This document shows positions 1,815 through 20,174 of a DNA stretch of 20,174 bases, one piece after another. The notes under the pieces are model-generated. The model ran no database searches. It saw only the letters and a program-made list of their open reading frames with translations, and was not told the origin of the DNA. This stretch comes from Enteropsectra breve (Eukaryota; Microsporidia). The position numbers were made by a program, and so were the translations under genes. Position 1 is the first letter of the stretch. Each line of letters begins with the position of its first letter. The stretch is from positions 1 through 20,174 of the forward strand of contig JALPMN010000566.1 in the NCBI GenBank assembly GCA_024243835.1, in the 5' to 3' direction.

Positions 1815-1985
1815 TCAAAAAGAAATCTTTTTTAGCTCGCTGTATGATTTGGCTGCATCATCACTTTGTAAAAGCTGCGCTAACTGAGAATAATAGACAG
1901 CAGGCTGATTTGTATCTTGTAAATGATCATTGATAAAATCTTCAATGTTTTTACTAAGCTTGTGAATTCTATACAAAAAGCTATA
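1815..1985 (-). other. In-frame open extension after the gene 2 TAG stop
   Basis: Immediately after the TAG at 1986-1988 the gene 2 frame continues without a stop for 56 codons to TGA at 1815-1817. It reads YSFLYRIHKLSKNIEDFIN and later DAAKSYSELKKISF. This resembles the part of the family unit that should follow in unit 2 (L-x-x-I-x-x-L-x-K-x-I, then a helix near the ALxFL position). It is either the tail of a gene cut by a nonsense mutation or a readthrough product. No membrane helix follows. Confidence 0.5.
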
Positions 1986-3311: not shown

Positions 3312-3366
3312 GAGTGGGTGATTTTTTAAAATATTAATAGCCAATAAAATAAAAGTTTAAAGGAGG
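3312..3366 (-). promoter_or_regulatory. Upstream signal of gene 2
   Basis: Reading the minus strand, CCTCCTTTAAAC (3366-3355) lies about 45 bases before the start. It is followed by TATTTTAAAAAATCACCC, with the CCC at 3318-3316 and then ACTC-ATG. This is a looser version of the two-part element in front of the array genes. Confidence 0.45.
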
Positions 3367-4504: not shown

Positions 4505-4573
4505 TAAAACATTTATTTCATCTTGAAGTACATTTTTGTAATGAGAGAACATTTTCTATTTTTCTTTACCCTC

Positions 4574-5992
4574 ATGAAAATTTCTTTCAAAGGCCATTCA
4601 ATTCCCAACACCAAGATGTGCCTGTGGCTCAACGACAGATGCTACTTTGTATACAAGGACTATCTCTATGTCTTGCGAATCGATGAGAACAGGACATATT
4701 CGCTGTTTCCATGCAAGAGCACCACAGGCATGTGTGTATTTACCACCGGCTCAAAGCACTCCGAAAAGAAACTTAGCAGAGTTGCTATTGTAAATGATTC
4801 CACACTGAACATATACAGACAGACAGAGAACTCTCTTGCACAGACCCACTCGCTGCCCCTTGAGTCGGTTCCGAACATGATAAAAGCATTCAGCCAGGGC
4901 TTAATTTTTATATACGGCAGCTCTGTACAGATTTTCTCAGAGGAAACTTTACGCACTCCCATTAACATAAATAACAGTGCAATCAGCAGACATATCCAAA
5001 ATATGAGTGAAAATTCGCAGACTATTAAGGATATTACATGCAGTGGAAACTACTCCTACATTCTAACCGGAGCAAATAAAATAGTAAGAATATTGAATAT
5101 TTTTGATACCCTCAGCCTAATAAGCCCTGTAGCAATGCAATGTACTAACAAATCCACAGCAGAACATAAGTCTATCGCAGAACATAAATCCACAGCAGAA
5201 CATAAGTCTATAGATTCTATAAATGAAACTGATAAAGAATACATTATTTTAGGAAATGACTCAGGTTTTGAGAAACACGAAATTGTGGGAGAAAGACTGG
5301 GCCTAAAGTACTCGTACAGCGCAAGCCTAAAGGAGTGTGAGCAAGTGGCATTCCAGTGCGGCTATTGGTGTGATAAAAATCTGGTGGAAATCGGAAAGGC
5401 ACCGATGCTTGTTTTGAGCGAGAGAATAAACAGCCTTTTCAAAATGAATATCACTGCTAGTGATTCAAAAATAGTAGCACTAAGTGACAGCAGAATTTAT
5501 TTTATAGAAAAAGAAGAGAAGGAAATAAAAAGCACATCTGAGGCACACAAAACATTTAATGCTGTTGAGTGCAGTATGGTTGAGGAAGTTACTGTGCCTG
5601 ACTACATCGAGAATAGTGAAATCGAAGAAGAATATGTGAATTTGCTCCAAAATATAGAAAGATGCAGCATGCTGGCGGATGAGGTGCTTGAAAAACAGGC
5701 ATCGTTCAAAGAGAGGGAGAGATTTATCAGTGATAAAAGAGAAGAAATAAACAGGGGGATAAGTGCAGCTAATGACAGGGCTGCAGAGATAAACAAGAGA
5801 ATCGAAAAGCTGAAAAATAGAGCAATGCTCATTGTCAAGGAAGGGGACAAACAGGAATTCAGCGATGGAGTGAAATACCTGGAGAGTTTGATTTGCAAGA
5901 TAGAAAAGGAGAATGTGCCCAAATGGGAGGATATTAAGAGCAGGCTCCTGGTGCAGCGTTCAGTACTAAAAGCAAAAAGAGCATATTTATAA
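4574..5992 (+). CDS. Beta-propeller-like plus coiled-coil protein, possibly Nup82/Nup88-like (gene 4, 472 aa)
   Basis: The frame opens at TTG 4523 and has ATGs at 4541 and 4574. I choose 4574 because it follows ACCCTC directly, the microsporidian start signal; the product then has no signal peptide. Residues about 1-320 show repeated short beta-strand patterns (YVLRIDENRTYS, TLNIYRQTEN, VRILNIFDTLS, KIVALSDSRIYFIEKEE) typical of a degenerate WD40-like propeller. Residues about 350-472 are charged and strongly helical (a coiled coil with ERERFISDKREEINR). A propeller followed by a C-terminal coiled coil is the layout of the nucleoporins Nup82/Nup88. That match is one of architecture only, so the assignment is tentative. 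An 18-bp repeat at 5150-5213 encodes STAEHK/SIAEHK inside the propeller region, probably in a surface loop. A fragment resembling the C-terminus recurs at about 16.1 kb. Confidence 0.7.
   Translation: MKISFKGHSIPNTKMCLWLNDRCYFVYKDYLYVLRIDENRTYSLFPCKSTTGMCVFTTGSKHSEKKLSRVAIVNDSTLNIYRQTENSLAQTHSLPLESVPNMIKAFSQGLIFIYGSSVQIFSEETLRTPININNSAISRHIQNMSENSQTIKDITCSGNYSYILTGANKIVRILNIFDTLSLISPVAMQCTNKSTAEHKSIAEHKSTAEHKSIDSINETDKEYIILGNDSGFEKHEIVGERLGLKYSYSASLKECEQVAFQCGYWCDKNLVEIGKAPMLVLSERINSLFKMNITASDSKIVALSDSRIYFIEKEEKEIKSTSEAHKTFNAVECSMVEEVTVPDYIENSEIEEEYVNLLQNIERCSMLADEVLEKQASFKERERFISDKREEINRGISAANDRAAEINKRIEKLKNRAMLIVKEGDKQEFSDGVKYLESLICKIEKENVPKWEDIKSRLLVQRSVLKAKRAYL
5150..5213 (+). repeat. 18-bp in-frame tandem repeat in gene 4
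   Basis: Three full units of 18 bases and a partial fourth. Alternate units are nearly identical (36-bp period) and encode S-[TI]-A-E-H-K. The frame is preserved. It is likely a flexible insertion between propeller strands. Confidence 0.8.
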
Positions 5993-5999
5993 CGATAAA

Positions 6000-6245
6000 C
6001 ATTAAAGCTTCATATTATTTTTTATCCTTATTTTTAAGAATAAAAAATTTTAAGTAAATTTCTATTTCAACAACAACATTAAAGCTTCATATTACTTTTT
6101 ATCCTTGTTTTAAGAATAAACCTTTTTAAGTAAATTTCTATTTCAACAACAACATTAAAGCTTCATATTATTTTTTTTATTCCCATTTTTATTTATAAAA
6201 AATTTTAAGTAAATTTCTATTTCAACAACAACATTAAAGCTTTTT
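6000..6245 (+). repeat. Tandem repeat of ~77 bp, 3.2 copies
   Basis: Units begin CATTAAAGCTTCATATTA at 6000, 6077 and 6153, and a partial fourth starts at 6232 (unit lengths 77, 76 and 79). Each unit ends TAAATTTCTATTTCAACAACAA. The first parts are well conserved and the T-rich middles differ. The array fills the space between gene 4 and gene 5, so copies supply AAATTT-type tracts upstream of gene 5. Confidence 0.9.
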
Positions 6246-6277
6246 TAAGTTTTTAAGGTTAATACATCCTATTTTAA

Positions 6278-6325
6278 ATGAAATTTATACTTTGCATCAA
6301 ATTAGATGTTTGTTTAACCCTCAAA
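6278..6325 (+). other. Possible N-terminal extension of gene 5
   Basis: An in-frame ATG at 6278 would add 16 residues (MKFILCIKLDVCLTLK). The C-triplet at 6318-6320 and its short distance to the ATG at 6326 argue that this stretch is 5' leader or promoter. The hydrophobic composition keeps a signal-peptide version possible. Confidence 0.4.
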
Positions 6326-6922
6326 ATGGATGCTGATGGAGCCCTAAATAAAATTTATAATGGCGGTAGTGCAACAAACAAGGAACTAAATATTCTCAGA
6401 AGATCAATGGAAATAAGCGCTACAAAATATCAGAACTCTGAGTCTGATGCAAGTGATGATGATCTTATAAATTCCATTAAAATGTACTATGAGCTGGAGG
6501 GAAGCCTCTCGATGAATGAAGCAGCCCTGCTGTACGCCTTCAAAAAGGAAGGCACAAGAACAGCGGAGATTGATGAGATTCTTCTGCGTGGATGGGCCAC
6601 CGGAAAGACTCCCGCTGCCTTTTCTATGGAGAATCTGTTCCTTAAACTTGAAAATCTGTCTTTAAAGGAGGAATTAGCCAAAAATAAGCTTAAATTGGAA
6701 CAGCTTGATGATCAGAATAATATTCTAAAGAACAAACTGGAGCTGCTGGATAACGCAGAAACAGACAGGGACTATGAGCATGCGATGTTTATTGAGGAGG
6801 AGGTGCTCAAGCGCATGGAGCAGGAGAACATAAGGCTGCGCAGAATAAACGAGGAGGTCTATGGAGACACAGTAGAAGTATGGTATAAAATGGTTGAAGA
6901 CAAAATAAAAAGAGAAATGTGA
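6326..6922 (+). CDS. Coiled-coil protein, ancestor of scattered remnants (gene 5, 198 aa)
   Basis: Two starts are possible: ATG 6278 (214 aa, MKFILCIKLDVCLTL) or ATG 6326, preceded by AACCCTCAAA. I favour 6326 because of the C-triplet, giving MDADGALNKIYNGGS and no signal peptide. If 6278 is used, the extra 16 residues are hydrophobic and could act as a signal. Residues about 1-95 are mixed helical (MNEAALLYAFKKEG); about 105-185 are a continuous coiled coil (ENLFLKLENLSLKEELAK, then IEEEVLKRMEQENIRLRR). It ends EVWYKMVEDKIKREM. I do not recognise the family. It converges on gene 6, 178 bases away. Decayed copies of its 3' half occur at four places further right, which suggests it was duplicated together with the neighbouring family genes. 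Nuclear or cytosolic location is inferred only from the missing signal. Confidence 0.75.
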   Translation: MDADGALNKIYNGGSATNKELNILRRSMEISATKYQNSESDASDDDLINSIKMYYELEGSLSMNEAALLYAFKKEGTRTAEIDEILLRGWATGKTPAAFSMENLFLKLENLSLKEELAKNKLKLEQLDDQNNILKNKLELLDNAETDRDYEHAMFIEEEVLKRMEQENIRLRRINEEVYGDTVEVWYKMVEDKIKREM

Positions 6923-7100: not shown

Positions 7101-8462
7101 TTATTTGCGTGCCTTTATAATAATCACAGCACACACTATAAATATAGCTAGTGTTACTATTAATATCATTCCTATGTGCTCGTTTACTTTATCTGTAATA
7201 GTGAGATCGATATCTCCATTTTCTATTTTTAAGTCATTAACCTCGTCTCTTATTTTCTTGTATATATAATTAGCCTTTTCTATAGATATTTTTGTTGGCC
7301 CTGCTTTATCCAAAATAACTTTTTTAATATTATCCTTCACTTCATTCATTTCGTTAAAAATCACATCATAATCTGTATCCGTGTCCAATCTATTCTTATA
7401 ATCTGTAATCTTAGATTCTGCTTCAGAAATCAACTTATTCATCTGCTCAATGTCATTAATACAGCCATTAAAGGCCTCGGCACATTTTCTAACACGAACT
7501 TGATAATCCAAAACAATCTCATTGATTCCTGGCGATTTTCTTTGCTTCGCCAAATCCATCATTACTTTGTTCAGTTTTTTTCTCTGCGTCATTAACTCTT
7601 CCACGTCATTTAGCTCTATAATCCTGTCTTTTGCTTTCTCAAAGGATTTTGACAGTTGCCTGAAAAGATCCCGGCATTCTTCAAGGTCAACTTGATTTCT
7701 CTTGTTATTATTTTCGCTGTTCTCCTCGTTATCTTTATCATTATCTGAATTTTCATCTGATACACCCATACTATCATTATCAGCTTCTTGATCATCTAAA
7801 TCTTTGAGATCCACATCCCCCTCTACAAAACTTTTATATTTGTCTGCGGTTAGCAAGTACTTTAAGGCCCCTGCATAGTCAAAGCGCAGAGTTTGTGGGA
7901 AAAAGAGTATTTTACGAGCAGAATAACTTTTTGCTCGGCTGAACTCGATACTGAGAAAAGATTCTATAGAGCTCAGTAGTTTGTTTGCGCTAACAAACAT
8001 ATTGAGTTTTTCAGACAATTGAGAAATAGTGTTGCTTCGTCCTGCAGCAACATCTTTAATAATATTTTCACACTCATTTTTATTCAGAAAAAGCATATAC
8101 TGCAATACAGCCATTATTTCAATAAGAGCTTTTACATGCTCTCTTGCATCAGGCAAGCTTTTCCCCTCGGCTTTTTTAATTTCTTCGATTGCATAATCTG
8201 CTGCATCTTTCAATTTAAAGTTTTTTGCGGTGATATTAAAATTACTATCTGATGCATGGCGATAATTCGTTAAAAATTTATCATTTTCTTTACAGCCATT
8301 TCTTATGGTTTTAAAATTTTCATCATAGCTTATAATTCCTCCTTTGTTATCATGTAGAGTTATCTCAGCGGTATGTTTAGTTGATCCAGTGGTCTTTTCT
8401 TGCTGTTTGCAGTTGATGACTGCAGTCATCAATTGCATCATATTGATACCGCTGAACATCAT
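7101..8462 (-). CDS. Type I membrane protein of the array family, one unit (gene 6, 453 aa)
   Basis: The start is ATG 8462, directly after GCCC; the frame's outer start at 8468 is TTG. The N-terminus MMFSGINMMQLMTAVINCKQ is the family signal peptide (M-x-F-S-G). Residues about 40-225 form one helical unit: FNITAKNFKLKDAADYAIEEI, a hydrophobic helix HVKALIEIMAVLQYML, LLSSIESFLSIEF, ARKILFFPQTLRFDYAGALKYLLTADKYKSF. Then comes an acidic Asn/Asp/Glu-rich linker (about 222-255), a charged coiled-coil region (about 260-425) and a membrane helix (IGMILIVTLAIFIVCAVIII) ending in the short basic tail KARK. It lacks the PEA[AS][IV] tail seen in genes 7, 8 and 10. Predicted topology: outside N-terminus, very short cytosolic tail. 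Family function unknown. It is an intact copy. Confidence 0.85.
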   Translation of the reverse strand: MMFSGINMMQLMTAVINCKQQEKTTGSTKHTAEITLHDNKGGIISYDENFKTIRNGCKENDKFLTNYRHASDSNFNITAKNFKLKDAADYAIEEIKKAEGKSLPDAREHVKALIEIMAVLQYMLFLNKNECENIIKDVAAGRSNTISQLSEKLNMFVSANKLLSSIESFLSIEFSRAKSYSARKILFFPQTLRFDYAGALKYLLTADKYKSFVEGDVDLKDLDDQEADNDSMGVSDENSDNDKDNEENSENNNKRNQVDLEECRDLFRQLSKSFEKAKDRIIELNDVEELMTQRKKLNKVMMDLAKQRKSPGINEIVLDYQVRVRKCAEAFNGCINDIEQMNKLISEAESKITDYKNRLDTDTDYDVIFNEMNEVKDNIKKVILDKAGPTKISIEKANYIYKKIRDEVNDLKIENGDIDLTITDKVNEHIGMILIVTLAIFIVCAVIIIKARK

Positions 8463-8493
8463 GGGCAAAATTTTTAAAATTATTTTAAAGGGG
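8463..8493 (-). promoter_or_regulatory. Two-part C-box element of gene 6
   Basis: Minus strand: CCCC at 8493-8490 is followed by TTTAAAATAATTTTAAAAATTTT and then GCCC abutting ATG 8462. There are 27 bases between the CCCC box and the ATG, the same as for genes 7 and 8. Confidence 0.7.
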
Positions 8494-8738
8494 CTTCACT
8501 ATAAGAATATTCGCTTATATTTGAAGACGATAATTCCATTTCAATATTTTTCAAACGATTATGTGCCATGCTTACAGGATAATACGTAAATAGTATTAGC
8601 AAGTTTTATAATCTATTTTCAGCTTTTAAATGTTCTCTTATAGTATCCTACTTGGCATTTCATATTGCATTTATGCGGTAGTTCATTTATGTCTTTAAAA
8701 TTAAAATTAAAAGAAAAGAATAGTGTTAGGCAATGAAA

Positions 8739-8862
8739 ATATAGTTTTAATCAAGTTCATTAAAAGGGATAACAAAAATATAGTTTTTGTTGAAAGTTAT
8801 ATTTAATTAAATACCCATGATTTTAAATGATCATAGTTTTTATCAATTCCACTAAAAGGGAT
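8739..8862 (+). repeat. Imperfect direct repeat upstream of the gene 5 remnant
   Basis: ATATAGTTTTAATCAAGTTC plus ATTAAAAGGGAT (8739-8770) recurs as TCATAGTTTTTATCAATTCC plus ACTAAAAGGGAT (8831-8862), about 92 bases apart. Its role is unknown. It lies in the 557-base gap between genes 6 and 7, which otherwise contains only the gene 5 remnant. Confidence 0.6.
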
Positions 8863-8874
8863 TTTAGAGTTCTT

Positions 8875-8965
8875 TAAACAAGCAGCCCTTATCGAGGAGG
8901 AGCTGAAGAACACAAGGCTTCAGATCTTAACAAAAACTAAGTATAAATTATTCCTCTATATCTAA
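8875..8965 (+). pseudogene. Remnant of gene 5 (copy A)
   Basis: The plus strand reads AALIEEELKNTRLQILTK, matching gene 5 AMFIEEEVLKRMEQENIRLRR with a deletion of about eight codons. At DNA level ATCGAGGAGGAG..AAC.CAAGGCT is conserved. It lies just 3' of gene 7, convergent, which is the same relation gene 5 has to gene 6. Confidence 0.55.
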
Positions 8966-9019
8966 CCGTTGGATTCAATAAATAAGCTTAAAAACGACAA
9001 ATTTAATTGATAATTTATT

Positions 9020-10741
9020 TTAAATGGCTGCTTCTGGTAATGCAAAACCTTTGCTTCTTACCATAATAACTACAGCAATTACTATTATTATAGCTGTTAT
9101 TCCTATCACTATCTTTCCCTTATGATTATAGACTCTACCCATAAAAGAAGGCTTATTTTTATCTTCAGGTATTTTCTTTTCTAATTCTGATGCTAATTTA
9201 GTGTAATGTTCCTTACATTTACATAAATTACTTCTTATATCTGCAATAGCAGCACTACAGAGTCTTGCCTCAATACTATCTTTCAGCCCATTCATGTTGT
9301 TCAAAACCACATTGTAAATAGTTCCATTGTCAAATTCTGTTTGATACTTTTCCAAGCTGCGTTTTGCTCCTTTAGCAAAGATATCCATTGACTTAATTTT
9401 CTCCAAATAATCCTTAAAGGTAGCTGAATTCTTCTGAAGGCCTTCAAGATGCTTTTTAAGAGTCTCGTCATTTGGAGAAGTTTTAAGACGCTCATTGATC
9501 TTCTGTTTTAGCTTTTCCATGCTTTGTTTCAGTGCCTCATTTTCCTCCATTTTATTTATCTCAGCAAGCTCGCTTATTCCATCCTCGAGTATTTCTGATA
9601 TTTGCTTGGCGAGCTCCTGGAATTTGGCATAATTATTTGCCTTAATTGCTTCCTCCTCATGGTTATTTATGTCTTGAATAGGATCCTCTGTTTCGTCTGT
9701 TGGCTTTATTTTGGTCGGTTCAGGTTTTTTTGGTATTTTCCCTTTTTTTAAATCAGTAAATACTGGTGGATCGCTTGGTGTTTGCTTTTCTTGTGAATCA
9801 TCATCCACCGGTGGAGCAGTTACAATCGGGGATTCTACTTCTCTCTCCATTTCCATATGCTTATCAGCATCCACTCTGGCAAAAGCTGATGTAGTGCTTT
9901 TGATATGTTCAGATTGACTATCCTCTCTATTATCGTGCTGCAAATTCTCTTCTATAAAACATTGATACTTGTCTTGGGCTAATAAGAACCCCATTGCTCC
10001 TTCATAGTCAATACGTATGTTTTGTGGGAAAAAAAGGAATTCACGAGCAGAATCTTTTTTGGATTTATAGAATTCGTCACTGACAAATGTTACTATTTTT
10101 TTCATTAGTTCATTTATGCTAAAGAGCATATTAGATATATGGGAATTTTGAGAAACTACCCTTTTTTGCTCTTCATTAATACTATTCTTAATATTTTCTT
10201 GGCGCTTTAATTCATTTTTAGATAACTCAAGTGTTTCTATTTCCTCCTGTGAAAGTTTTGCTAATTTTTTATTTGTCGTTGATAATTTCATAGTATTTTC
10301 ATCATACTCTTCGTTATAACGCCTAAAAATGTGCTCCAAAACTATCATTATTTCAAGAAGAACTTTTACATGCTCACTTGCGTCACACAAGGCATTCTCT
10401 TCAGTATTTTTAACCTCCTTTATTGCAAAGTGTGTGGCATCACTTAGTTTAAAGTTTTCTGCAGTAATAAAACTACATGGTAACATTTGAACTTTCTCTT
10501 CAATCGATCTTGTTAAATAGTTATAATTTTCTTCACAATCTTCTTTCACGATTTTAAAATAATTCTTGTACCATGCATTGCTAGCTTCGGTATAATCAAG
10601 ACTTATTTCATTGTTGTTTTCTATTGATACTGAGGATTTTTGCTCCTCTGCTGTGTGCTGCTGCTCTGGAGCTGCTTCTTGGGAGTCACTCTTAAAAAAT
10701 GCATAGAATGAATGCAGTATGGCTCTTCCGTTGAAATGCAT
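9020..10741 (-). CDS. Type I membrane protein of the array family, one unit with long coiled coil (gene 7, 573 aa)
   Basis: ATG 10741 follows ATCC directly. The N-terminus MHFNGRAILHSFYAFFKSD is a family-type but weakly hydrophobic signal. The helical unit (about 45-275) holds FITAENFKLSDATHFAIKEV, HVKVLLEIMIVLEHIF, MLFSINELMKKIVTFVSDEF and FFPQNIRIDYEGAMGFLLAQ plus DKYQCFIEE. Compared with gene 6 it has an extra charged helix of about 50 residues in the middle of the unit. Next comes a Pro/Asp-rich linker (PPVDDDSQEKQTPSDPP, then KKPEPTKIKPTDE; about 300-370), a coiled-coil region (about 375-525) and one membrane helix (KIVIGITAIIIVIAVVIMV). The tail is RSKGFALPEAAI. Predicted surface or host-interface protein anchored by the C-terminus; no known domain. 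The copy appears intact. Confidence 0.87.
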   Translation of the reverse strand: MHFNGRAILHSFYAFFKSDSQEAAPEQQHTAEEQKSSVSIENNNEISLDYTEASNAWYKNYFKIVKEDCEENYNYLTRSIEEKVQMLPCSFITAENFKLSDATHFAIKEVKNTEENALCDASEHVKVLLEIMIVLEHIFRRYNEEYDENTMKLSTTNKKLAKLSQEEIETLELSKNELKRQENIKNSINEEQKRVVSQNSHISNMLFSINELMKKIVTFVSDEFYKSKKDSAREFLFFPQNIRIDYEGAMGFLLAQDKYQCFIEENLQHDNREDSQSEHIKSTTSAFARVDADKHMEMEREVESPIVTAPPVDDDSQEKQTPSDPPVFTDLKKGKIPKKPEPTKIKPTDETEDPIQDINNHEEEAIKANNYAKFQELAKQISEILEDGISELAEINKMEENEALKQSMEKLKQKINERLKTSPNDETLKKHLEGLQKNSATFKDYLEKIKSMDIFAKGAKRSLEKYQTEFDNGTIYNVVLNNMNGLKDSIEARLCSAAIADIRSNLCKCKEHYTKLASELEKKIPEDKNKPSFMGRVYNHKGKIVIGITAIIIVIAVVIMVRSKGFALPEAAI

Positions 10742-10772
10742 GGATAAAATTTTTTATAAATTTTTAAAGGGG
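10742..10772 (-). promoter_or_regulatory. Two-part C-box element of gene 7
   Basis: CCCC at 10772-10769 on the minus strand, followed by TTTAAAAATTTATAAAAAA and TTTTATCC abutting ATG 10741. The CCCC box is 27 bases from the ATG, as for genes 6 and 8. Confidence 0.7.
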
Positions 10773-10984
10773 CATTTTTGCAAAAGAACCAGTTAAAATA
10801 AAACGGTATGACTATATAACGATTTTACAAATTCTGTGCATAGGAAGAAATTAAAAACATTCTGAAAAGTATGCCATTTCAAAATATTAATTTATTTTTT
10901 TAAGGATGTCTGAATTGAAAAAAAGCATTTCAAAATATAATGGAGACAAACTGATTTGGCTAACAAAATGCCATATTTGCTGAA

Positions 10985-11057
10985 TAGAACATGCTAAATC
11001 AAGTGAAGCAGGAGCACAAAAAGCTGCGGGAAAGAAATAAGGATAATGATGCCTGAA
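10985..11057 (+). pseudogene. Remnant of gene 5 (copy B)
   Basis: The plus strand reads NMLNQVKQEHKKLRERNKDN, aligned with gene 5 VLKRMEQENIRLRRINEEV. The DNA match is strong (AGCAGGAG.AC, then GCTGCG, then AATAA.GA). It is followed by TGA. It lies 3' of the broken family copy at 11124-11857. The rest of this 380-base gap shows no gene. Confidence 0.65.
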
Positions 11058-11123
11058 CAAAAAGTGTTAAAACAACAAAGAAAAATATAATTTTGAATCC
11101 ATACTTTTGAAAATAACTTTATT

Positions 11124-11857
11124 TTAAATAGCGTCGGCCATTCTCGAATCATTTTTTTTTCTTCGCATTAAATAAATTGCGATAATCACAGCAACAACAC
11201 ACCAATCACTATTATCAGTTCTTTACGCGCACTGATTTTATCCATAAAAGAGGCGTTGTTATTAGACACTGATTTCTTATTATTAAACTCTGAATTTATG
11301 GCATCATATTTTTCTTCGGCAAGATTTATACATGATCTAAGACTATCTAGTTTATCAAAAACTTTAGTTTTTATCTCAGCTTTCGATGTATTCATATAAC
11401 TAAGAAGCATGGTATAATCTGCTGGGGCATTCATATCATTCTTATAGCCTTCAAGATTCAATGATTCAGCATCTAAGCTGCTTCTAATCTCACCAGCTTC
11501 CTTCTCTCCCTTTTTAAGGATGTTTGAGAGACACCCAAGTTCCAATTCACTGACTTTAAGACCTTCGTCTTTTTTATTTAAAAGATGTGCAGCTATCATA
11601 GTTTTTAGCATACTTAAGTCACCTTTTAGCTTTTTTAACTCACTGCTGTTAGTTATCTCTGCAAGCTAGTTTTTTCCATCCTCTATGTTCTTTGCGAGTT
11701 CTTCTAGAAGTTCTTGGCATTGTGTAAACGGATCTTGATTTCCCACTATATTGCCAATTTCTGGTCTTATTATATTCTGCCCATCTGTTGTTTCTTGTGC
11801 AGTGCACTTGATGAATGCAGTCATCAACTGTATTAAATAGATTCCGCTGAACAGCAT
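11124..11857 (-). pseudogene. Broken member of the array family (TAG stop plus frameshift)
   Basis: ATG 11857 (after ACCC) opens the family signal MLFSGIYLIQLMTAFIKCTAQE. The frame meets TAG at 11668-11666 and then continues in the same frame to 11186. Around the stop, EDGKN-stop-LAEI aligns with gene 7 EDGISELAEI, so the TAG replaces a Glu codon. The remaining part encodes coiled-coil sequence, then FMDKISARKELIIVIGV at the membrane helix. There a one-base deletion shifts the frame: the next frame continues VVAVIIAIYLMRRKKND to a TAA at 11126-11124. The whole helical unit (about 200 residues between signal and coiled coil) is missing compared with gene 7, so this copy is also internally deleted. 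Two separate lesions argue for a dead gene. Confidence 0.8.
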
Positions 11858-11887
11858 GGGTATTTTTTCTTAAAAAATTTAAAGGGG
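11858..11887 (-). promoter_or_regulatory. Two-part C-box element of the broken family copy
   Basis: CCCC at 11887-11884, an A/T stretch (TTTAAATTTTTTAAGAAAAA) and TACCC abutting ATG 11857. There are 26 bases between the box and the ATG. The element is kept although the gene is broken. Confidence 0.65.
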
Positions 11888-11918
11888 AATTTTATTATAA
11901 TACCGTTGAAAATTAATC

Positions 11919-12915
11919 TTGAAAAAAATTATTCCTCGTACAAGTTGATAAAACCATTTCATAAAAGATTATGTGCAATGCACAATTATTCTGTACTATT
12001 TGAATTTTGGTAAAATTGAGGCTTGTTATCTTCGTTCGATTTTTGCCATTTGAGTATTCTCTTACACCTGCTGTTCCTAAAGTATTTATAAGAAGCGATA
12101 TTATCGCTGCCCATTTATCTTCAGGTTTAGACGCTATGTATCTGCCTTTATTACTTGAGCTTAATCTATTTTTTATAATGAAAGATCTGCCCCTGTTACT
12201 CTTCTAAAACATGTTGCTCTACTTCTTAGTGATTTTATTAAAACTATCAATTGCTTATAAAGCCATTCATTTACATCGTTCTTTTTCAGTATTCATTAAA
12301 ATATTGTGGCGTGGCAGCCTATGATGTAAAAATTTAATTTATCTGAAGTAAGCTCAGAATGAATCCCAATAATTCTACTATAAAAGAATCTGTTCATGCC
12401 ACGGTGTAACACACTTAGATGTTTAAGCTTTCGGCAGAGAAAAGCGTTGGATCATTAAAATGCACATCTAAGTTTTATTATGCATATACTATCGTTTTAA
12501 ATTAAATTTCTAATGAAAAAAGTTCAACTTTAAAAAAAACTAGAGCTTTTGTGCAGTAAGGCTAAGAAACTCACTATAAAAAGAACTGTGGTAAAGCAGA
12601 GCAGCGTGAAAATACCAGGGAGGTATGTCCCAAGATGCCCGAGTGTGAAAATGTTGGTGGTGAAATAGCTCTTCGGAAATAATTAGACTTAGATTTTTAG
12701 TGCTTTCCAAATACTTAAAATAATAATGCAATTCATGGCCAGAAAGTCTATTTATGCTAAAAGAACTGCTTTTGCATTCAAACTACTTTGCTTTACTTTG
12801 TGAACATCCGAATTCTTTTTCAGTGGGCCAATTAAAGGCGTCGATAGATGCAAATACCAATTTTAAATCCACCGAACTAATACAGCATCTAAGATCATTT
12901 GTTAGAAAAACTTAA
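11919..12915 (-). pseudogene. Decayed unidentified gene or element
   Basis: This gap of about 1.2 kb holds no intact gene, but the minus strand has a run of open segments in changing frames. From about 12915 to 12540 one frame contains SSVDLKLVFASIDAFNWP and LSGHELHYYFKYLESTKN, broken by a TAG at 12785-12783. Further on come NRFFYSRIIGIHSELTSDKL (about 12395-12300) and KWAAIISLLINTLG with REYSNGKNRTKI (about 12110-12010), ending with TAA near 11919. Composition is protein-like, and all pieces lie in order on one strand. I do not recognise it; a transposon or an old gene is equally possible. An inverted repeat (12414-12422 with 12464-12472) lies inside. The segments could in part be chance. 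Confidence 0.35.
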
Positions 12916-13199
12916 CATGCATTTTTTCTAACTGTCAGCTAGTTACATACGCAGAATTAAGGTGCCAGATTTGTAGTTTACCAATCTTTGCTTGCCTTTT
13001 ACAAGCGTCTAAAGCTATCAAAAGACTCTATGTGAGCCTTCAAATGAGTAAATATGGAGTGATACGCTAAAAAATTAATATATAAGAGAATAAAATTTCA
13101 TAAAGGAAATCAAAGAGCCGATTCAACAGAAATATGCATGATACGCAGCATATTGAATATTATTACCTACATTATCCATCGCAGGATTAAAATCAAAAC

Positions 13200-13476
13200 G
13201 CATATACCAGAACTTCGAACTGAGTTTCACAATTTAAAAAATTTGATAATAAGCGAATTAGCCAAAATAAGCTTAATAAAGCATAATTTGTCCTTGGAAG
13301 CAATACTTATAAATGAAACTGTCTTGCACTGGTGAAACGAACAAAGACTATAAAAAGGCCTATTTTACAGTGAAAGACTTGCTAAGGTACAAAATAATAG
13401 AGCATATGGCTGCAGAGAGTAAACAAGGATGTAATAAAAATCTGGTTTAACATGATTGAAGAGCAATTTGATTTTT
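13200..13476 (+). pseudogene. Remnant of gene 5 (copy C, longest)
   Basis: The 5' part reads NLKNLIISELAKISLIKHNL, matching gene 5 ENLSLKEELAKNKLKLEQL; GAATTAGCCAAAA-TAAGCTTA is shared except for one base. After a TGA at 13333-13335 and frameshifts, the 3' part reads RVNKDVIKIWFNMIEEQF, matching gene 5 RINEEV, then VEVWYKMVEDK. The order and spacing follow gene 5 over about 270 bases. The copy ends 15 bases from the gene 8 stop on the opposite strand. Upstream (12916-13199) I see no convincing gene. Confidence 0.75.
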
Positions 13477-13490
13477 ATAAAAAATTTATT

Positions 13491-15959
13491 TTAAACGGCT
13501 GCTTCTGGTAAAACAACACCTTTGCTGTTTGTCCTCAAAACAAAAACAATTGCAATTATTACAGCGATAGACGCAATCGTTCCAATAAATATTTTTCCTT
13601 TGTGAATGCTGAGTTGATCCATGAACGCATGCATGCTATTTTCAGTTTTTGGTGCATTCTTTTCACGTTCCGATGCCTTATTTCTAAGCTCTGATTCTTT
13701 CTCGATTAGTGTTGATGCCCTATTGTTAATTTCTAATTCTTTATTACCAAGTTCTGATTTCTTATTTTCAAGCTCCGATTCCTTTTTTTCGAGCTGTGAT
13801 ACTTTATTTTCAAGTTCCGATGCCTTATTTTTAAGCTCTAATTCCTTCTTTTCGAGCTGTATTTCTTTATTTTCAAGTGCCGACTTCTTATTTTTAAGTT
13901 CCGAAGAGTTCTTAGTCAGTGCTAATTCTTTCCTATCCAGTTCTGATTTCTCAATGTCCAGTTCTGATTTCCTCTTCTCAAGTTCTGATTTCTCAGTGTC
14001 CAGGTCTGATTCTTTCAATATCAGTGTTGATGCCTTATTTATCAGTGCTGATTCTTTTTTATCTAGTTCTAACTTTTTATTCTGAAGTTCTAATTCTTTA
14101 TAGTCAAGCTCAGATGCAATAACAGCATTTTCCCCCTTAAGCTTAGTTATCAGTGTTTTAATAGATGAAATTACTTTAGTACGATCGTCCTCGTTGTCAA
14201 CCTTCAAGTCCCTTAAGCAGTTCAATACCGTATTATAATCGGAATCTGTGTCCATTGCATCCAGATCTGTTTTTAACTTGCATTCTGCACTATGTGTTTC
14301 TTCCTTGTCATTATCTTCAACTTCCTCAGAACTCTCTTCTTTATCTTCTAGCTTTAATATTATCTGCTTTGGTATTTGCATTCCTTGAAAACCATCTGAC
14401 TTTGAAGTCTCTGCGACAGATACTTTACTCTCAGAAGGCTGCTTCAAAAAAGCCATTGCCTTCTCTTCTTCTGCGCCTAAATAACTATGAACATCGCAGC
14501 AACCTATATAACCATCATAGAGACCGGGCTCACGAATAAGTGTTTTGATATGTTCGCTTATTTGCTTCATTAATGCACATATGGCAATCATTTTGCTATA
14601 GCATTCTATATTAATCTGTTCACGCTCGGAAGTTGATTTGTAATCATATAATATAAATTTTCTAGGACGGTAATCATATAACCTAAACGTGCATTTTAGA
14701 ATAGTTATTATATTTCCGATTATATCCATGTTTTCCCTTTCTGTACTTCTATCATGCTTTATTCTATCGACTGCAGCATGAAATGCATCTGTCAAACTAT
14801 AACCATCTACTATTATCTTATTTAATTTTATAATTTTGTGTCGGATTTCTTCGGGTATGTCTCGAATCGATAGCTGTTGGTCAGCAATTACTGTTTCCAG
14901 ATCTTTATTAAAATGCTCATAATAATAACCATCAGGCTCATTTTTTAAAACCAGATCTTCTTTAAACGGCCCATCAGTAACTGGAGTCTCAAAATTATAG
15001 AATTCCTTTTCCCTTTCACTTATTGGACTATTAGTAGCACTTGTTTCCATAATCTTAAACTCTGCATATTCATCTTGGCTTAAATGTAGTGTAATGCAGG
15101 TTCATAGCTCATGTATAATTCTTGGGGAAGAAAGACTCTATTTTTAGAGCAATTTATTGCTTTGTTACTTATAAATAGAGTTTTAAATTGTTTAGTTATT
15201 TCTTCCATTTTATAGTATATGCTATAGAGTCTTTTACCAAAAGATTCCTGAACATAACTAAATTCCACATGCATTTTGTAGCTAGCTTTATCGAGCTCGA
15301 CCCGTGTTAGAGTTTCATAAGACCCATCCTTTAGTGTTATCTCTTTTCTTAAAAGACGGTCTCTTTTTTTCGCTATCCATAGCATCCTTCATTTCTTTAT
15401 CCTCTACAAGCTTTTTATATTCGTTAAGTGTCTGAATAAATAAATGTTCCAAAACTACAATTATTTCAAACAGAACTTTTACATGTTTTTGAGCATCTTT
15501 GAGCTCATTTAAACCACCAATATTTAAATGCTTCTTTAGATAGTCCAAAGCAGCGTTTAGATTAAAATTGTTTATAATGATAGGCTTTGTTGGTGTATTA
15601 CAATATCGGGAGTGAAAGAGTTCAAGTAAATCTCTAATGATATTTCTATGATTAATTTCTTGGAAATTGACAAATTCTTTATAAAAACCGAATATTGTGC
15701 CATCATGCTCAATAGTTTTGTCAGCGAATTCAGTAAAAACAAGGGTATTCTCCTCTGTTATGTTTTTATCGCCGTGTTCTTCTGCATTATGTGGAGATTC
15801 TGTTTCACCCGTTGAATTGGACTGTGTGGTTGGTATATCATGTTTTTGTGGTGCTGCAACGAGAATTGGTGTTTCACGCGCATCCTTCTCTACTGCTGTT
15901 GGGTGAGATTTGCCGAGTGCAATCAGAGCCAGTATCACATTACATCCGCTGAACAGCAT
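13491..15959 (-). pseudogene. Two-unit type I membrane protein of the array family, split by two frameshifts (gene 8, ~822 codons)
   Basis: ATG 15959 after ACCC opens MLFSGCNVILALIALGKS (signal). The frame runs to an A7 run (15370-15364, minus sense); one extra A shifts it, and the gene continues in the next frame (RDRLLRKEITLKDGSYETL to YMSYEPALHYI, stop 15080). A one-base deletion near 15095 restores the first frame, which runs to 13491. Unit 1 has IINNFNLNAALDYLKKHL and VLFEIIVVLEHLFIQT. Unit 2 has GYSLTDAFHAAVDRIKHD, IIGNIITILKCTF and AMAFLKQPSE. Next comes an acidic linker, about 20 heptads of the type SELENKK (about 14110-13650), a membrane helix (KIFIGTIASIAVIIAIVFVL) and the tail SKGVVLPEAAV. 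Every segment aligns with gene 10 in order. ATG 15050 would express unit 2 alone, without a signal. It may be a pseudogene, a sequencing artefact at A7, or a switchable gene. Confidence 0.8.
13650..14110 (-). repeat. 21-bp (heptad) coding repeat in gene 8
   Basis: About 20 degenerate units of 21 bases encode seven-residue modules of the form [SAK]-[ETA]-L-x-x-K-x (for example SELENKK, SELEKRK, SQLEKKE). Because the period equals one coiled-coil heptad, the array makes a long rod-like stalk next to the membrane helix. The reverse strand is open over 13621-14085 only because of this repetition. Confidence 0.85.
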
Positions 15960-15990
15960 GGGTGAAAATTTTGCAAAATTATAAAAGGGG
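15960..15990 (-). promoter_or_regulatory. Two-part C-box element of gene 8
   Basis: CCCC at 15990-15987, then TTTTATAATTTTGCAAAATT, then TTCACCC abutting ATG 15959. The box lies 27 bases from the ATG. Confidence 0.7.
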
Positions 15991-16082
15991 TTTTTCGAGA
16001 TCAATGCCGGTTTTGGCTGCAAAAGGAAAAAATTAATCAAACTACTCTTATGATTACCCTTTTTTACCAAAAGCAATCCTAA

Positions 16083-16130
16083 ATGAAATCAAGAATAAAG
16101 GCGATAACTGGGAGGACATATAGCAAAATT
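16083..16130 (+). pseudogene. Remnant of the gene 4 3' end
   Basis: The plus strand reads NEIKNKGDNWEDI followed by a stop, similar to gene 4 CKIEKENVPKWEDIK; GGGAGGA-ATAT is shared at DNA level. It is a short match and could be chance. It is supported by a gene 5-like fragment just downstream in the same order as in the intact locus. Confidence 0.4.
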
Positions 16131-16211
16131 CAATACCTTTCGACACTTCACTGCTTATAAATAGTAAATGCTAACTTGATAACAATTTCAACAAATTAAT
16201 TGGTCATATAT

Positions 16212-16275
16212 GCTGGAAAAGCTCCCTTGACTGATTGGTTGCCTATAAACTCCTTTCTTAAGAAGCATCCAGCCA
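16212..16275 (+). pseudogene. Remnant of gene 5 (copy D)
   Basis: The plus strand reads GKAPLTDWLPINSFLKK, comparable to gene 5 GKTPAAFSMENLFLK; GGAAA, CTCCC and TTCTTAA blocks are shared. It is a weak but ordered match between the gene 4-like piece and the 3' end of gene 9. The rest of 16131-16540 shows no gene. Confidence 0.4.
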
Positions 16276-16542
16276 TATACAAATCAGATGTCTTATTGAG
16301 GATGAAGACCAATAGTATAACCGTTCCTTATACTTATTGGGTGATAATACAATTTAAGAAAAAAAATATTTTATTAAAGCATGGCTTTTAAAAAGACTAA
16401 AGATTTTCATACTCATTGCTATAAACGGCTTACAGACCGATGGCCTCTGGCTCTTCCAACCGTATATACAAATATCTTAATATTCCTCATATTTTAACCT
16501 TTTCAAAACCTTATACAAAATTAAATAAGCAATATTTTTATT

Positions 16543-16719
16543 TTAAAGAGATACTTCTGGCACAGCCGCGGCTTGCTGCTTGTTGCCCAAACAACGAAAA
16601 TTACCATTATCATAGTAATAGCGTCGGTTGCTCCTATCACTTTCTTTCCAATTTGCTTACTGACTTGATTCATAATCATCGGATTCTTCCAAAGCCCTGA
16701 CGAGGGCCTTCAGTTAATC
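16543..16719 (-). pseudogene. Out-of-frame membrane anchor and tail belonging to gene 9
   Basis: Downstream of the gene 9 stop, minus-strand frames encode MNQVSKQIGKKVIGATDAIT, then MIMVIFVVWATSSK (from 16679 on). After a one-base deletion the frame reads AAVPEVSL with TAA at 16545-16543. This aligns with the family end (FMDKVDKHKG, helix, SKG, V-PEASI). The anchor is therefore present but no longer in frame with gene 9, and it carries its own frameshift. Confidence 0.75.
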
Positions 16720-17223
16720 TCATAATTTGCTTGTCAAGGGCTTATTTATCTTCTTAAGTTTTTCATTCTCTCGTTCAAGTTCTTCATTCTTTGTTTTAAG
16801 CGCTAAGTTTTCATTTGTGCGCTTTTCCATTTCGACTTCGCGATCATATACAGCAACTTCGCGCTTTCCGACAGCAACTTCGCGATCATATACAGCAACT
16901 TCGCGCTTTCCGACAGCAACTTCACGCGTTGTGGCATTATTTTCACGCGTTGTCGCATTATTTTCACGAATTCCCACATTCTTTTCACGAATTGCCACAT
17001 TCTTTTCACGTTCTTTCAGTTCATCCGTTAGGTTGGGATTTGCAATAGGGATAACATCTTCTACACCACCAACGTTAATATTATGACCTTGTTGCAATGG
17101 ATCTAGGCTCGCTGTTCCAGGCCCTTCTTCTTGAACTGAGGTTGGCTGTGTTGGATTGTCTGATGGACCGCATTTGCTGAATGCAATCAGTGATACTATG
17201 ATATCATATCCGTTGAACCGCAT
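16720..17223 (-). CDS. Truncated array-family protein with heptad repeats, anchor lost (gene 9, 167 aa)
   Basis: ATG 17223 after ATCC opens MRFNGYDIIVSLIAFSKCGP, the family signal peptide. There is no helical unit. A Pro/Gln/Gly-rich stretch (about 20-65) is followed by nine seven-residue modules beginning with R: REKNVAI, REKNVGI, RENNATT (twice), REVAVGK and REVAVYD alternating, REVEMEK. A charged coiled coil then ends KPLTSKL before TGA at 16722-16720. The frame stops before the membrane helix, which survives out of frame just downstream. If expressed, the product would be a short secreted coiled-coil protein, not a membrane protein. It could be a dying copy or a soluble variant. The upstream element is present but with longer spacing than in its relatives. 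Confidence 0.65.
   Translation of the reverse strand: MRFNGYDIIVSLIAFSKCGPSDNPTQPTSVQEEGPGTASLDPLQQGHNINVGGVEDVIPIANPNLTDELKEREKNVAIREKNVGIRENNATTRENNATTREVAVGKREVAVYDREVAVGKREVAVYDREVEMEKRTNENLALKTKNEELERENEKLKKINKPLTSKL
16830..17015 (-). repeat. 21/42-bp tandem repeat in gene 9
   Basis: Consecutive 21-base units encode R-E-x5 heptads. Two pairs are near-perfect 42-base repeats (TTCGCGATCATATACAGCAA with TTCGCGCTTTCCGACAGCAA on the plus strand). Recent copying is visible, since pairs are almost identical while the outer units have diverged. Confidence 0.88.
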
Positions 17224-17263
17224 GGATAGAAGTTTTTCGTTTTCTTATATTCTTTTAAAGGGG
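17224..17263 (-). promoter_or_regulatory. Two-part C-box element of gene 9
   Basis: CCCC at 17263-17260, TTTAAAAGAATATAAGAAAA and a further A/T stretch, then CTATCC abutting ATG 17223. There are 36 bases between box and ATG, against 26-27 in the other members. Confidence 0.6.
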
Positions 17264-17499
17264 TATTTCATTTAAGCATCCAATTAAATTAAAGACTAAA
17301 GGGGAAAGCAACTGAGAGTTGTATCGTACCAACTATAGCACTGGTATCTATATAAGTACTAAATTTCAACACTATTTCATTTTACACCAGACTAATCAAA
17401 TATATGATAAGTGCCATTCGTTGGGTGGGGGACAGAATCCACTGTAAAAATTTCAAAACATAAAAAACAAATGTATTACTGCTTTAAAAACCATTCGCA

Positions 17500-18310
17500 A
17501 TCTTTAAGATATACGTTTTACAGCGTAATTGTGCTGCATTTGAGAACTTTTGGGCTTGTGTGCCAAATTACGTATTCCTGCGTTATTCGCAATTCTTTCC
17601 TTCAGTGTTCAGTACAGACGCTCAATTTTCAGAGTGTGTATGGCCTATTCCTTGAATTTACATAATTTAGGCTATGATTAGTACATCATGTCAATACCCT
17701 CAAATTTAAATTCTTTTATAACCACTCCACTTATCAATACAACCGTAGTATCACGCTCGATTCTATTATTTTCGAACCATTGATTGTGCCTGGCTTCCAT
17801 TTTCAGCTTATCATACTTTCATCTTAGTTCAATAGCACCAATGATCCATTATCGTACTTGTGAGTTAAAAATGGGTTTCATCCAGCACCGCCATTTTTAT
17901 CTCATTAGAGCAAGCAGAACTCTTTAAGAAGATTATAGTGGTTTGCCATAAAACGATTTAACTTCTCCTCTCGATCCTCATTGTATCGGCTTTTCCCATA
18001 AGATGATATTTTTATAGTAAGCTAAGCAGGCTTAAATATCCGACTTATAGAAAATATTGAATTATAAAAGTATAGTTGTTAAAGATATTAAATGTATTCC
18101 TATAACTTCTTGAGTTGAAACGCCACCAAAGATTAATTCCATGTCTTTTCTTAATTTTATCGGTGTTTAAAATACCATTAGATTCGATTTTCGGGTTACG
18201 GCGTCTCTCTATGGTAATTAATCCTAGTTCCTGCGCTTATTCTATCGCTTTGCTGGTGTTACAACTTTTCTGTAATATTCTCTCTTCGCATTAGTCCTAT
18301 GAATTTTACC
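17500..18310 (-). pseudogene. Decayed ISXO2-like (IS1595/Merlin) transposase
   Basis: The minus strand contains, in order but in shifting frames, the landmarks of this DDE family. Near 18240 is AIE-stop-AQELGLITIERR (the usual IEWAQELGL start, with Trp turned into a stop). At about 17888-17874 is AVLDETHF, with the first catalytic Asp. At 17849-17826 is WIIGAIEL. At about 17740-17713 is IDKWSGYKRI, with the second Asp. At 17679-17661 is NHSLNY. At about 17640-17580 is HTLKIERLY-stop-TLKERI (the usual HTN-IE-W-LK end). Several stops and frameshifts make it inactive. This family is known from many microsporidian genomes. I could not identify terminal inverted repeats. It fills most of the 1.17-kb gap between genes 9 and 10. 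Confidence 0.82.
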
Positions 18311-18395
18311 ATGAAATCAGTTCCTCCTAAAGAGTACTAAAAACGTTTATAAAACAACTAAATTAACCCATGTAAAATTTTGATGAATATTTATT

Positions 18396-20174
18396 TTAGA
18401 TAGATGCTTCTGGCACTGCAACGCCTTTGCTGCCTGATCTCAAAACAACGATAACCACTATAATCAAAGCAAATGCACCAATTGCTCCTAGTGCTATCAT
18501 TCCCTTGTGTTTATCGACTTTATCCATAAATGTTGGCTTGTTGTTAGGTTCTGTTGGCTTGTTGTTATGTTCATTTTCTTTATTATTAGGGTCTGATGTC
18601 TTTTTTTCATTATTATTCACGACTTGAATGGGATTCTTTTTTTCAGCATCATCATCTACCGGTGGATCGCTTGGTTTCGAATCAGCAGGCTCTTCTATAA
18701 AGTCTTTGTAATCAGAATGTCGTTTCAAAAATGCCATTGCATCAAAAGCACTACTTTTTAAATAACTGTGATAAGAACAGCAACTTAGATATCCATTACT
18801 CTGGCTTGGTCCATTAATTAGTGTGCCTATATAATTGCTTATTTCTTTCATTAATGCGTTTATTGCCACTAAATTGCTATAGCATTGTGCCTTAATCTTC
18901 CTACTCTCATTTTTTGCTTCAGAGCTGCTAATTTCCACACCATCCATCTTATTTTTATACGTCTCGTATGCGCAATTGAGGATAGTAACTATGCATGCGA
19001 TAATAACCATGCTTTCTTTTTCTTTACTGTTATCATTCTTGATTTTATCGACTGCCGCGTTAAAAGCACCGGTCAGATTATAATCATTAACCTTTACCTT
19101 ATCCATTCTTATAATACTTCTATACATCTCAACCACTAAACCAGACGCCTCCAAATTAGAAAATCGCTTAATAAGTTTGATTTCTAGATCATTGTAAAAA
19201 TCCTCATAGGAATAACCTTTAGAATCATTAATTAAAATTACATCATCATTATATGGTCCATAAGTGACGGGGATTTCAATTTTAAAAGAATCTTTTTTCT
19301 TATTTTCATCTTGATTATTAATATCTGTTGTTTCCATATTTACAAACTTTTTAAGATCGTCTAGACTTACCAAGAACTGTAATGCAGGCTCATAGCTCAT
19401 ATATAATCTAGTGGGGTACATTTCTGTTAACCTGGAGCATTTTAATGATGATTCGTTCAAGAATCTATTTTTTAAGTCTCTCATTATTGTATCCATACTA
19501 TCAACTATGCTAAAAAGTCTAATGTGATACTTATCCTTGTTAGCTCTCATTATTTTTTGTTTTGCTGTAATACCACCATTGAGCTCTTCTATGGTCAAAG
19601 GTTTCTTTTTTCCTGGCTTTAATTGTTGTTCTCCTTGCTGTATTGAGGTTATTTTTTCATTATAATTCTTGATTTTTTGTTGTGCCTCCTCTTCTAGCTT
19701 TAAATATTCGTTTTTAGTGTGGACAAACAAGTGCTCCAACACCACTATCGCCTCAATCAGCACTTTAATGTACTTTTCTGGTTTTGCAAAGGAAAAAGGA
19801 TCATCATGCATTTGATTTCTAATATGGTCTGTTGCTTCACTTATGTTAAAATTATTTATAATAATAGGCAGCTTTGTTTTCCATTCTTTTTGATGATTAA
19901 GATTTAAGATTAAAAAGGCAAAATGAATAACATTTCGCTCTTCTATGTGGCAGATAAATTTTTTATAAAAATCCGCTACACTACCATTGTGTTTAATGGT
20001 TTTATCAGCTAATTCAGTAAATACAGGAGTGTTATCTTCATTATCGTCAGTATTATGCGGAGGCACTGTTTCACCCGTTGGGCTGGGCGGTGCAATTGGA
20101 CTTCCGTGCTCTTTTTCTGCTTGATCTCCGCTGACTTTAGAGGCTTGTGGTGATGGAACTGGTATTGGTCCTAC
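18396..20174 (-). CDS. Two-unit type I membrane protein of the array family, 5' end beyond window (gene 10, 592 aa visible)
   Basis: The frame is open to the window edge; the apparent start at 20066 is GTG and lies inside the gene, because TGETVPPHN aligns with gene 8 TGETESPHN, well after its signal peptide. Unit 1 (visible residues about 50-280): FTELADKTIKHNGSVADFYK, IINNFNISEATDHI, VLIEAIVVLEHLFVHT, LFSIVDSMDTIMRDLKNRF, MYPTRLYMSYEPALQFLVSL. Unit 2 (about 295-505): VTYGPYNDDVIL, DYNLTGAFNAAVDKIKND, VIIACIVTILNCAYE, INALMKEISNYIGTLI, DAMAFLKRHSDYKDFIEE. A Pro/Asp/Asn-rich linker (PSDPPVDDDAEKK, NNKPTEPNNKP) leads to FMDKVDKHKG, a membrane helix and the tail SKGVAVPEASI. It has no long coiled coil, unlike gene 8. 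It is the best intact two-unit reference for repairing the alignment of gene 8. Confidence 0.85.
   Translation of the reverse strand, partial: VGPIPVPSPQASKVSGDQAEKEHGSPIAPPSPTGETVPPHNTDDNEDNTPVFTELADKTIKHNGSVADFYKKFICHIEERNVIHFAFLILNLNHQKEWKTKLPIIINNFNISEATDHIRNQMHDDPFSFAKPEKYIKVLIEAIVVLEHLFVHTKNEYLKLEEEAQQKIKNYNEKITSIQQGEQQLKPGKKKPLTIEELNGGITAKQKIMRANKDKYHIRLFSIVDSMDTIMRDLKNRFLNESSLKCSRLTEMYPTRLYMSYEPALQFLVSLDDLKKFVNMETTDINNQDENKKKDSFKIEIPVTYGPYNDDVILINDSKGYSYEDFYNDLEIKLIKRFSNLEASGLVVEMYRSIIRMDKVKVNDYNLTGAFNAAVDKIKNDNSKEKESMVIIACIVTILNCAYETYKNKMDGVEISSSEAKNESRKIKAQCYSNLVAINALMKEISNYIGTLINGPSQSNGYLSCCSYHSYLKSSAFDAMAFLKRHSDYKDFIEEPADSKPSDPPVDDDAEKKNPIQVVNNNEKKTSDPNNKENEHNNKPTEPNNKPTFMDKVDKHKGMIALGAIGAFALIIVVIVVLRSGSKGVAVPEASI

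Follow-up and report, generated by a model that had tools for sequence, protein, structure and literature searches.

Proposed variant heads on a shared carrier in a modular, lineage-restricted protein family of the microsporidian Enteropsectra breve

The window analysed here, the whole 20,174-nucleotide stretch of contig JALPMN010000566.1 from Enteropsectra breve, contains an array of six related minus-strand genes, located at 7.1-20.2 kb in the open reading frame map. With moderate confidence, we interpret these genes as part of a modular, lineage-specific family of membrane-anchored surface proteins, in which variant host-contact heads are mounted on a common carrier. The copies share modules, are clustered in tandem and have decayed in several cases, and in one pair of loci on two further contigs the heads have a history separate from that of the rest of the gene.

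In the mechanism we propose, the N-terminus would direct the protein into the secretory pathway and the C-terminal helix would anchor it in the parasite membrane, with the heads facing the host cell and binding host molecules. Tandem duplication would supply spare copies, recombination would move head cassettes among loci whose N-terminus, stalk and anchor stay constant, and broken copies would decay in place, the family as a whole serving as a store of heads. A more specific form of this proposal, which we advance tentatively and as possible rather than probable, is a system of cassette exchange. Here, a scattered pool of single- and double-headed copies, both intact and broken, would supply heads to constant carriers and diversify the host-contact surface of a parasite of antibody-less invertebrates. 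Large, fast-evolving families are likely to be microsporidian tools for handling hosts, and there are few accounts of how they diversify. Two loci that resemble each other on both sides of a divergent head offer a concrete, testable case of module exchange.

Sequences compared

The contig of the window is called C70, and C4, C18, C23, C33, C96, C105, C153 and similar names refer to further contigs of the same assembly. The assembly searched amounts to 3.96 Mb in 155 contigs, while the genome is reported to be about 6.0 Mb with 3531 proteins (PMC10393165), and family counts are therefore lower bounds. Searches of these 3.96 Mb for the ribosomal proteins L2 and L14 detected neither family. The beta-tubulin encoded on contig C65 matches the one recorded for E. 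breve at 100% over 436 residues. An earlier note, made from the letters of the window, had associated it with the Microsporidia, and the small-subunit ribosomal RNA bears this out, matching the microsporidian model at 882 bits. An Rfam scan of the window gave nothing at the gathering cut-off. The first and second heads of double-headed copies are named U1 and U2.

Heads and carriers with separate histories in one locus pair

The sharpest contrast between modules was obtained when C23 (17.6-22.7 kb) was compared with C33 (15.4-20.5 kb). Identity is 90-100% across a neighbouring gene, the intergenic DNA and the N-terminus of the next gene (C23a and C33a, respectively). It falls in the heads, to 42-63% in U1 (70% in a transition window) and 67-70% in U2, and, for the membrane helix and the greater part of the stalk, is back to 91-97%. 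The earlier note held that the copies differ mostly in linker and stalk. This is half true: U1 is itself only 24-57% identical among six copies, and in one gene pair of the module comparison the stalk is 89-91% identical, against 35% for U1 and 52% for U2.

These identities by module come from copies having the module concerned in one frame. Between C33a and C23a, the synonymous divergence (dS) is 0.04 in the N-terminus, 0.98 in U1, 0.81 in U2, 0.23 and 0.09 in the stalk and 0.06 in the membrane helix and tail. Rounding the synonymous counts gives 115 of 218 for the heads and 22 of 211 for the remainder of the gene (Fisher p 7e-22). As synonymous divergence is high in the heads and low elsewhere, selection on amino acids is by itself insufficient and the histories of head and carrier differ; for this pair we take the evidence of separate histories to be good. 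Exchange of the heads, or homogenisation of the DNA around them, would explain the pattern better than selection alone.

Several observations weigh against the proposed mechanism. The sharp mosaic is shown by one gene pair only; the pair next to it (C33b and the corresponding pieces of C23) is about 93% alike throughout, head included. The 3' flank of C23 and C33 beyond the gene declines to 85-73%. The pattern is blurred in C23 and C153: the N-termini are 83% identical, the heads 44-73% and the stalk and membrane regions 68-87% (omitting one comparison window of 12 aligned bases, at 92%). Between g11 of the window and C33a the contrast is mild (dS 0.40-0.43 in the heads and 0.16 in the membrane helix and tail, p 0.045). 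One ratio of nonsynonymous to synonymous divergence (dN/dS) reaches 1.26, with few changes and a broken copy as partner. Just before the 5' head boundary there is an exact match of 123 bases between C23 and C33, so a join made during assembly is possible at that point. The head of g7 is closest to that of g6 (45%), and its stalk is closest to those of C33a (48%) and C23a (42-56%), versus 22% for g6. This discordance is at most suggestive of a mosaic, as a fast-evolving g6 stalk would produce the same.

The two loci could also be old duplicates, in which recent gene conversion made the upstream DNA, N-termini and stalks alike while the heads were left untouched and none was moved. We regard this as unlikely, although it predicts the same identity profile, and the dS of the stalk (0.09-0.23), being higher than that of the N-terminus, is what patchy conversion could leave. 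The neighbouring gene and intergenic DNA are about 93% identical over about 2 kb, and conversion would have to spare just one interior segment. No outgroup locus giving the direction of the change between C23 and C33 was found.

A false mosaic, in which short-read contigs join different loci within repeats, is in our judgement quite unlikely. The exact match at the 5' boundary fits such a join, as does the finding that C33 (end at 22253) and C105 (end at 14340) each break off within a family gene and share an overlap of exactly 68 bases. At the 3' boundary, however, exact matches between C23 and C33 are only 16-28 bases long, short for a false join, yet identity climbs from 68% to 91%. Furthermore, the C33 copy is one open frame of 746 residues (ENBRE01_1587) that spans both boundaries.

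Positive selection as the sole cause, with heads diverging in place on an otherwise conserved protein and without recombination, is rejected as very improbable: it would leave no contrast in dS such as that of C33a and C23a, and every head has a dN/dS below 1, even if no module is less conserved than the heads in the C33a/C23a, g11/C33a and C23/C153 pairs. For C33a and C23a, the dN/dS values of the heads (0.64 and 0.42) exceed those of the N-terminus (0.14) and of most of the stalk (0.21 and 0.46), though the membrane helix and tail reach 0.75. The head values for g11 and C33a are 0.69 and 0.78. Over all module comparisons, 15 of 16 give dN/dS below 1, several of them near saturation.

Structure of the head units

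The head is a mostly helical unit of about 175-220 residues, present once in g6 and g7 and twice in tandem in g11. Homology between U1 and U2 extends over the full length of both (hhalign score 67.6 at 98% probability; the best of 200 column shuffles scored 14.7 and the reversed control 3.0). In a set pooling the units of the window with those of two other E. breve contigs, leave-one-out profiles recovered six of six U1 and six of six U2 at 92-225 bits, with shuffled controls scoring 13.9 or less (200 each), in line with the earlier expectation that the units align above background.

AlphaFold2 models were obtained for g11 (mean predicted local distance difference test, pLDDT, 68.5 with 8 aligned sequences) and g7 (67.9 with 7). 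Within the head blocks, pLDDT is mostly 72-94, with dips to 48-69. In both models, U1 is predicted to contain, in order, short strands, a helix, a strand, a helix, two long helices, a short strand and final short helices; the predicted order in U2 is alike, with shorter opening strands. In the g7 model, a disordered linker (residues 267-354) connects the head to the helical membrane-proximal domain at residues 355-521, and the membrane helix spans residues 533-563. In g9 and g10, a heptad-repeat stalk takes the place of the g7-type membrane-proximal domain.

The absence of a recognised domain, claimed before, is supported at the level of sequence and of fold. Pfam searches with hmmscan of eight family proteins or pieces from the window (the g8 N-terminal piece and the g9 middle piece being outside the scan) gave no match meeting a cut-off; a Peptidase_C9 match in g2 (E 0.0034) lies below it. 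DUF1609, the domain of InterB/NemLGF26, and DUF3654 are absent from the listing for these eight at E up to 1, and no LRR, ricin-B, kinase or RING-type domains of other host-interface families are listed. ENBRE01_1587, 2317, 2318 and 3106 have no precomputed Pfam domain. Neither the g11 nor the g7 model has a Foldseek match to PDB folds at E of 0.001 or less; VIA fold matches are within or at the edge of the background for helical models. A profile search of PDB sequences gave E 0.0045 or worse (a membrane protein, an SMC coiled coil and designed chains).

The non-significant fold matches to the g7 model, mainly to its membrane-proximal domain, include trypanosome ISG65, the haptoglobin-haemoglobin receptor and the Borrelia PF12 protein BBH37. 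These are helical bundles on the pathogen surface, and the likeness of the trypanosome and Borrelia proteins is one in the way of working only.

The array and its copies

Two genes (g6 and g7) are intact, three (g8, g9 and g10) are broken, and the frame of g11 is still open at the contig edge; a single broken copy had been noted previously. Related arrays are also present on C23 and C33. The six copies with shared modules described earlier were recovered, with a seventh, divergent member (g2) outside the 7101-20174 range then given. The features are as follows.

7101-8462, minus strand: g6, intact, 453 residues (open reading frame)
~7818-8348, minus strand: single head unit of g6, followed by an acidic linker (profile, BLASTP)
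~7119-7175, minus strand: membrane helix of g6, tail KARK; the N-terminus has a hydrophobic segment (hydropathy)
9020-10741, minus strand: g7, intact, 573 residues (open reading frame)
~9956-10630, minus strand: single head unit of g7, followed by the disordered linker
~9179-9679, minus strand: five-helix membrane-proximal domain of g7, pLDDT mostly 85-93 (AlphaFold2)
~9053-9145, minus strand: membrane helix of g7; tail end PEAAI (hydropathy)
11186-11857, minus strand: g8, broken and headless, with a g6-like N-terminal region and then stalk-like sequence
13491-15959, minus strand: g9, broken, in three frames; pieces treated separately
15318-15959, minus strand: g9 piece with the N-terminus and first half of U1
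15083-15385, minus strand: g9 piece with the second half of U1
13494-15050, minus strand: g9 piece with U2 (~14421-14960), stalk, membrane helix and tail PEAAV
~13.65-14.1 kb, minus strand: heptad-repeat stalk of g9 (7-residue self-identity 0.42)
16534-17223, minus strand: g10, broken and headless, with heptad repeats (7-residue self-identity 0.60)
18396-20174, minus strand: g11, open to the contig edge, 592 codons present
~19335-19994 and ~18690-19247, minus strand: tandem heads U1 and U2 of g11, with a short linker (profile, AlphaFold2)
~18441-18497, minus strand: membrane helix of g11; tail PEASI (hydropathy)
1986-3311, minus strand: g2, divergent seventh member, 441 residues
8485-8493, minus strand: motif CCCCTTTAA before the start of g6
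10764-10772, 11879-11887 and 17255-17263, minus strand: CCCCTTTAA before g7, g8 and g10, with a near match before g9

In BLASTP comparisons, g6 and g7 match in the head (E 7e-29) and in the membrane-proximal region (E 6.5e-7), and g11 matches two pieces of g9, the C-terminal one at E 2.5e-46 and the other at E 5.4e-31. The N-terminal region of g8 is 80% identical to that of g6 at the nucleotide level over 87 columns; its damage consists of one in-frame stop and, further on, a frame change at the membrane helix. The N-terminus of g10 resembles those of ENBRE01_2318 and C23a (67% of 24 residues); a stop at 16720 precedes the membrane helix, and relics of helix and tail are located at 16534-16675. 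Membership of g2, which contains a head unit, with weak support for another, and has its nearest relatives on C105 and C96, is indicated by a profile E of 9.5e-7 and a branch profile score of 42.5, where 60 shuffles reached 13.6 at most.

A C-terminal membrane helix is present, by hydropathy, in all eight first-branch pieces that have the 3' part of the gene in one frame, and none was found by the same means in g2 or in the C96 member. A tail like SKGxAxPEA[AS][IV] is present in five of the six copies compared at the membrane helix, g6 being without it. The motif CCCCTTTAA adjoins four of the six array starts upstream and may be a promoter element; no exact copy occurs at C33a, C33b or C23a. 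Further exact matches to CCCCTTTAA or CCCTTTAAA number one in C70, two in C23 and none in C33.

Restriction to E. breve

In the published definition, a lineage-specific large gene family has at least ten homologous members in one species, at least half of them with a signal peptide or membrane helix, and none outside the clade (PMC5423893, PMC10393165). The E. breve loci found number about 16 and form two linked branches, broken copies included: seven in the window (g2 and g6-g11), six on other contigs (two each on C23 and C33, and one each on C105 and C96) and ENBRE01_2317, 2318 and 3106. Of 6967 candidates, the profile search returned six: four were named proteins of E. breve and two were the window's own, and relatives were thus in E. 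breve only; the search needs shared 5-residue words, by which remote relatives could escape. As a control, the same database yields named tubulins of several other microsporidia. A single-protein search with g7 found only g7, though relatives are present in the database, which is a limit of the method. Judged from these comparisons, the family is most likely a lineage-specific E. breve large gene family, of a kind already described, and the earlier description as clustered, strongly diverged, modular and restricted to its lineage stands.

The earlier note could not tie the array to a named family. The relatives are indeed annotated merely as "hypothetical protein" (ENBRE01_1587, ENBRE01_2317, ENBRE01_2318 and ENBRE01_3106), yet members are in the databases and large E. 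breve families (EbrLGF1 and others) were reported by Wadi et al. in 2023 (PMC10393165). ENBRE01_2406, the EbrLGF1 member that was modelled, is not among the profile-search hits.

Firm membership was rejected for an 811-residue gene on C23, for C153 and for C81, which link to the family weakly (probability 9.9%, with a score of 20.0 where the top one of 60 shuffles reached 10.4). Likewise, the array was not classed as subtelomeric. Arrays reach contig ends on C23, C33 and C70, but in view of the overlap of the C33 and C105 ends, such ends may be assembly breaks.

A second E. breve family, of proteins of about 970 residues, is represented by C23 2592-5507 and 26 further matches (27 including itself) on C4, C18, C23, C26, C32, C33, C47, C50, C83, C97, C101 and C106. 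At least some members have hydrophobic N-termini, and this family could be EbrLGF1.

Secretion and topology

Hydropathy was used here, independently of any trained predictor of signal peptides or membrane helices. Fourteen family starts, eight of them from loci outside the window, were compared with 245 internal methionine 24-mers. For 12 starts, only 0.4-5.7% of the internal segments are as hydrophobic or more. The signal peptide proposed for the family is weak in g7 and g6, where the corresponding figures are 20% and 11%. A "secreted type I" arrangement, also proposed, with a cleaved signal peptide, one C-terminal stop-transfer helix and the tail inside, is plausible; the N-termini are mostly hydrophobic. 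Set against it are these two weak N-termini and the charges flanking the membrane helix, which among the six copies tested favour type I in g6 only.

The proteins might instead be internal: tail-anchored, endomembrane or structural components of the spore, with coiled-coil bodies and an N-terminal segment that is not a working signal peptide. The weak g6 and g7 starts are in keeping with this, as are the heptad stalks of g9 and g10 and a positive charge on the N-side of the membrane helix, seen in five of the six copies. We consider it improbable, as 12 of the 14 starts rank with the most hydrophobic 6% of internal segments, and as lineage restriction and clustering fit host-exposed families (PMC5423893, PMC10393165). 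In Nematocida, large lineage-specific families whose proteins have signal peptides or membrane helices were over-represented among the host-exposed proteins identified by proximity labelling (PMC5423893). By analogy with those families, the most likely destination of the array proteins is the parasite surface, where the heads would point to the host cell.

A cysteine follows the N-terminal hydrophobic segment in 12 of the 14 starts, often as KC or RC, g7 and g9 being without it; it might form a disulphide after cleavage.

Relation to known families

The EbrLGF families of the same species are paralogous and rich in signal peptides or membrane helices, and the AlphaFold model of an EbrLGF1 member is reported to show no apparent similarity to solved proteins; the available account contains neither modular heads nor head exchange (PMC10393165). 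The Nematocida families NemLGF1, NemLGF5, NemLGF3 and NemLGF4 (Reinke et al. 2017, PMC5423893) are likewise lineage-specific, often adjacent and with host-exposed members. Some have signal peptides and some C-terminal membrane helices; in N. parisii the two signals are reported in separate families, whereas the array proteins appear to carry both. E. breve is listed among lineages that would have lost NemLGF1 (PMC10393165).

In the literature seen on gene conversion, recombination and variable domains in such families, the nearest case is that of the E. cuniculi subtelomeres (PMC4704409), and others may exist. The interAE, interB, interC and interD families are alike in being clustered membrane-protein families with pseudogenes and intragenic recombination sites. 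They have other domains (DUF1609, DUF3654, DUF1686 and DUF2463), none of which is listed for the array family, and interAE and interB are described as having intracellular domains together with a signal peptide and a single membrane helix at the N-terminus. What appears to be new here is a head divergent between two loci that are otherwise alike upstream, in the stalk and in the anchor. The mechanism is a further example and not a principle of its own, E. cuniculi providing the precedent for recombination in clustered membrane-protein families (PMC4704409).

According to PMC5179134, E. breve, an intestinal parasite of Oscheius nematodes, infected all four strains tested of two Oscheius species, and its sister E. 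longa infected one of two species only; head repertoires could therefore be compared with host range.

Other features

Upstream of the gene at 6278, the window contains an imperfect tandem repeat (5998-6255) of three copies, spaced 76 and 79 bases apart and 84-94% alike over 69 bases. On C33, positions 3-3572 hold a Ty3/gypsy-like retroelement, with reverse transcriptase, RNase H and integrase over the Pfam cut-off and a protease-like match just below it. At positions 3905-6412 of the C33 segment 8001-18000, a protein of 835 residues is encoded that has a hydrophobic start and is cysteine-rich in its N-terminal part, which weakly resembles a PHD domain (PHD_NSD of Pfam at E 0.034, under the cut-off).

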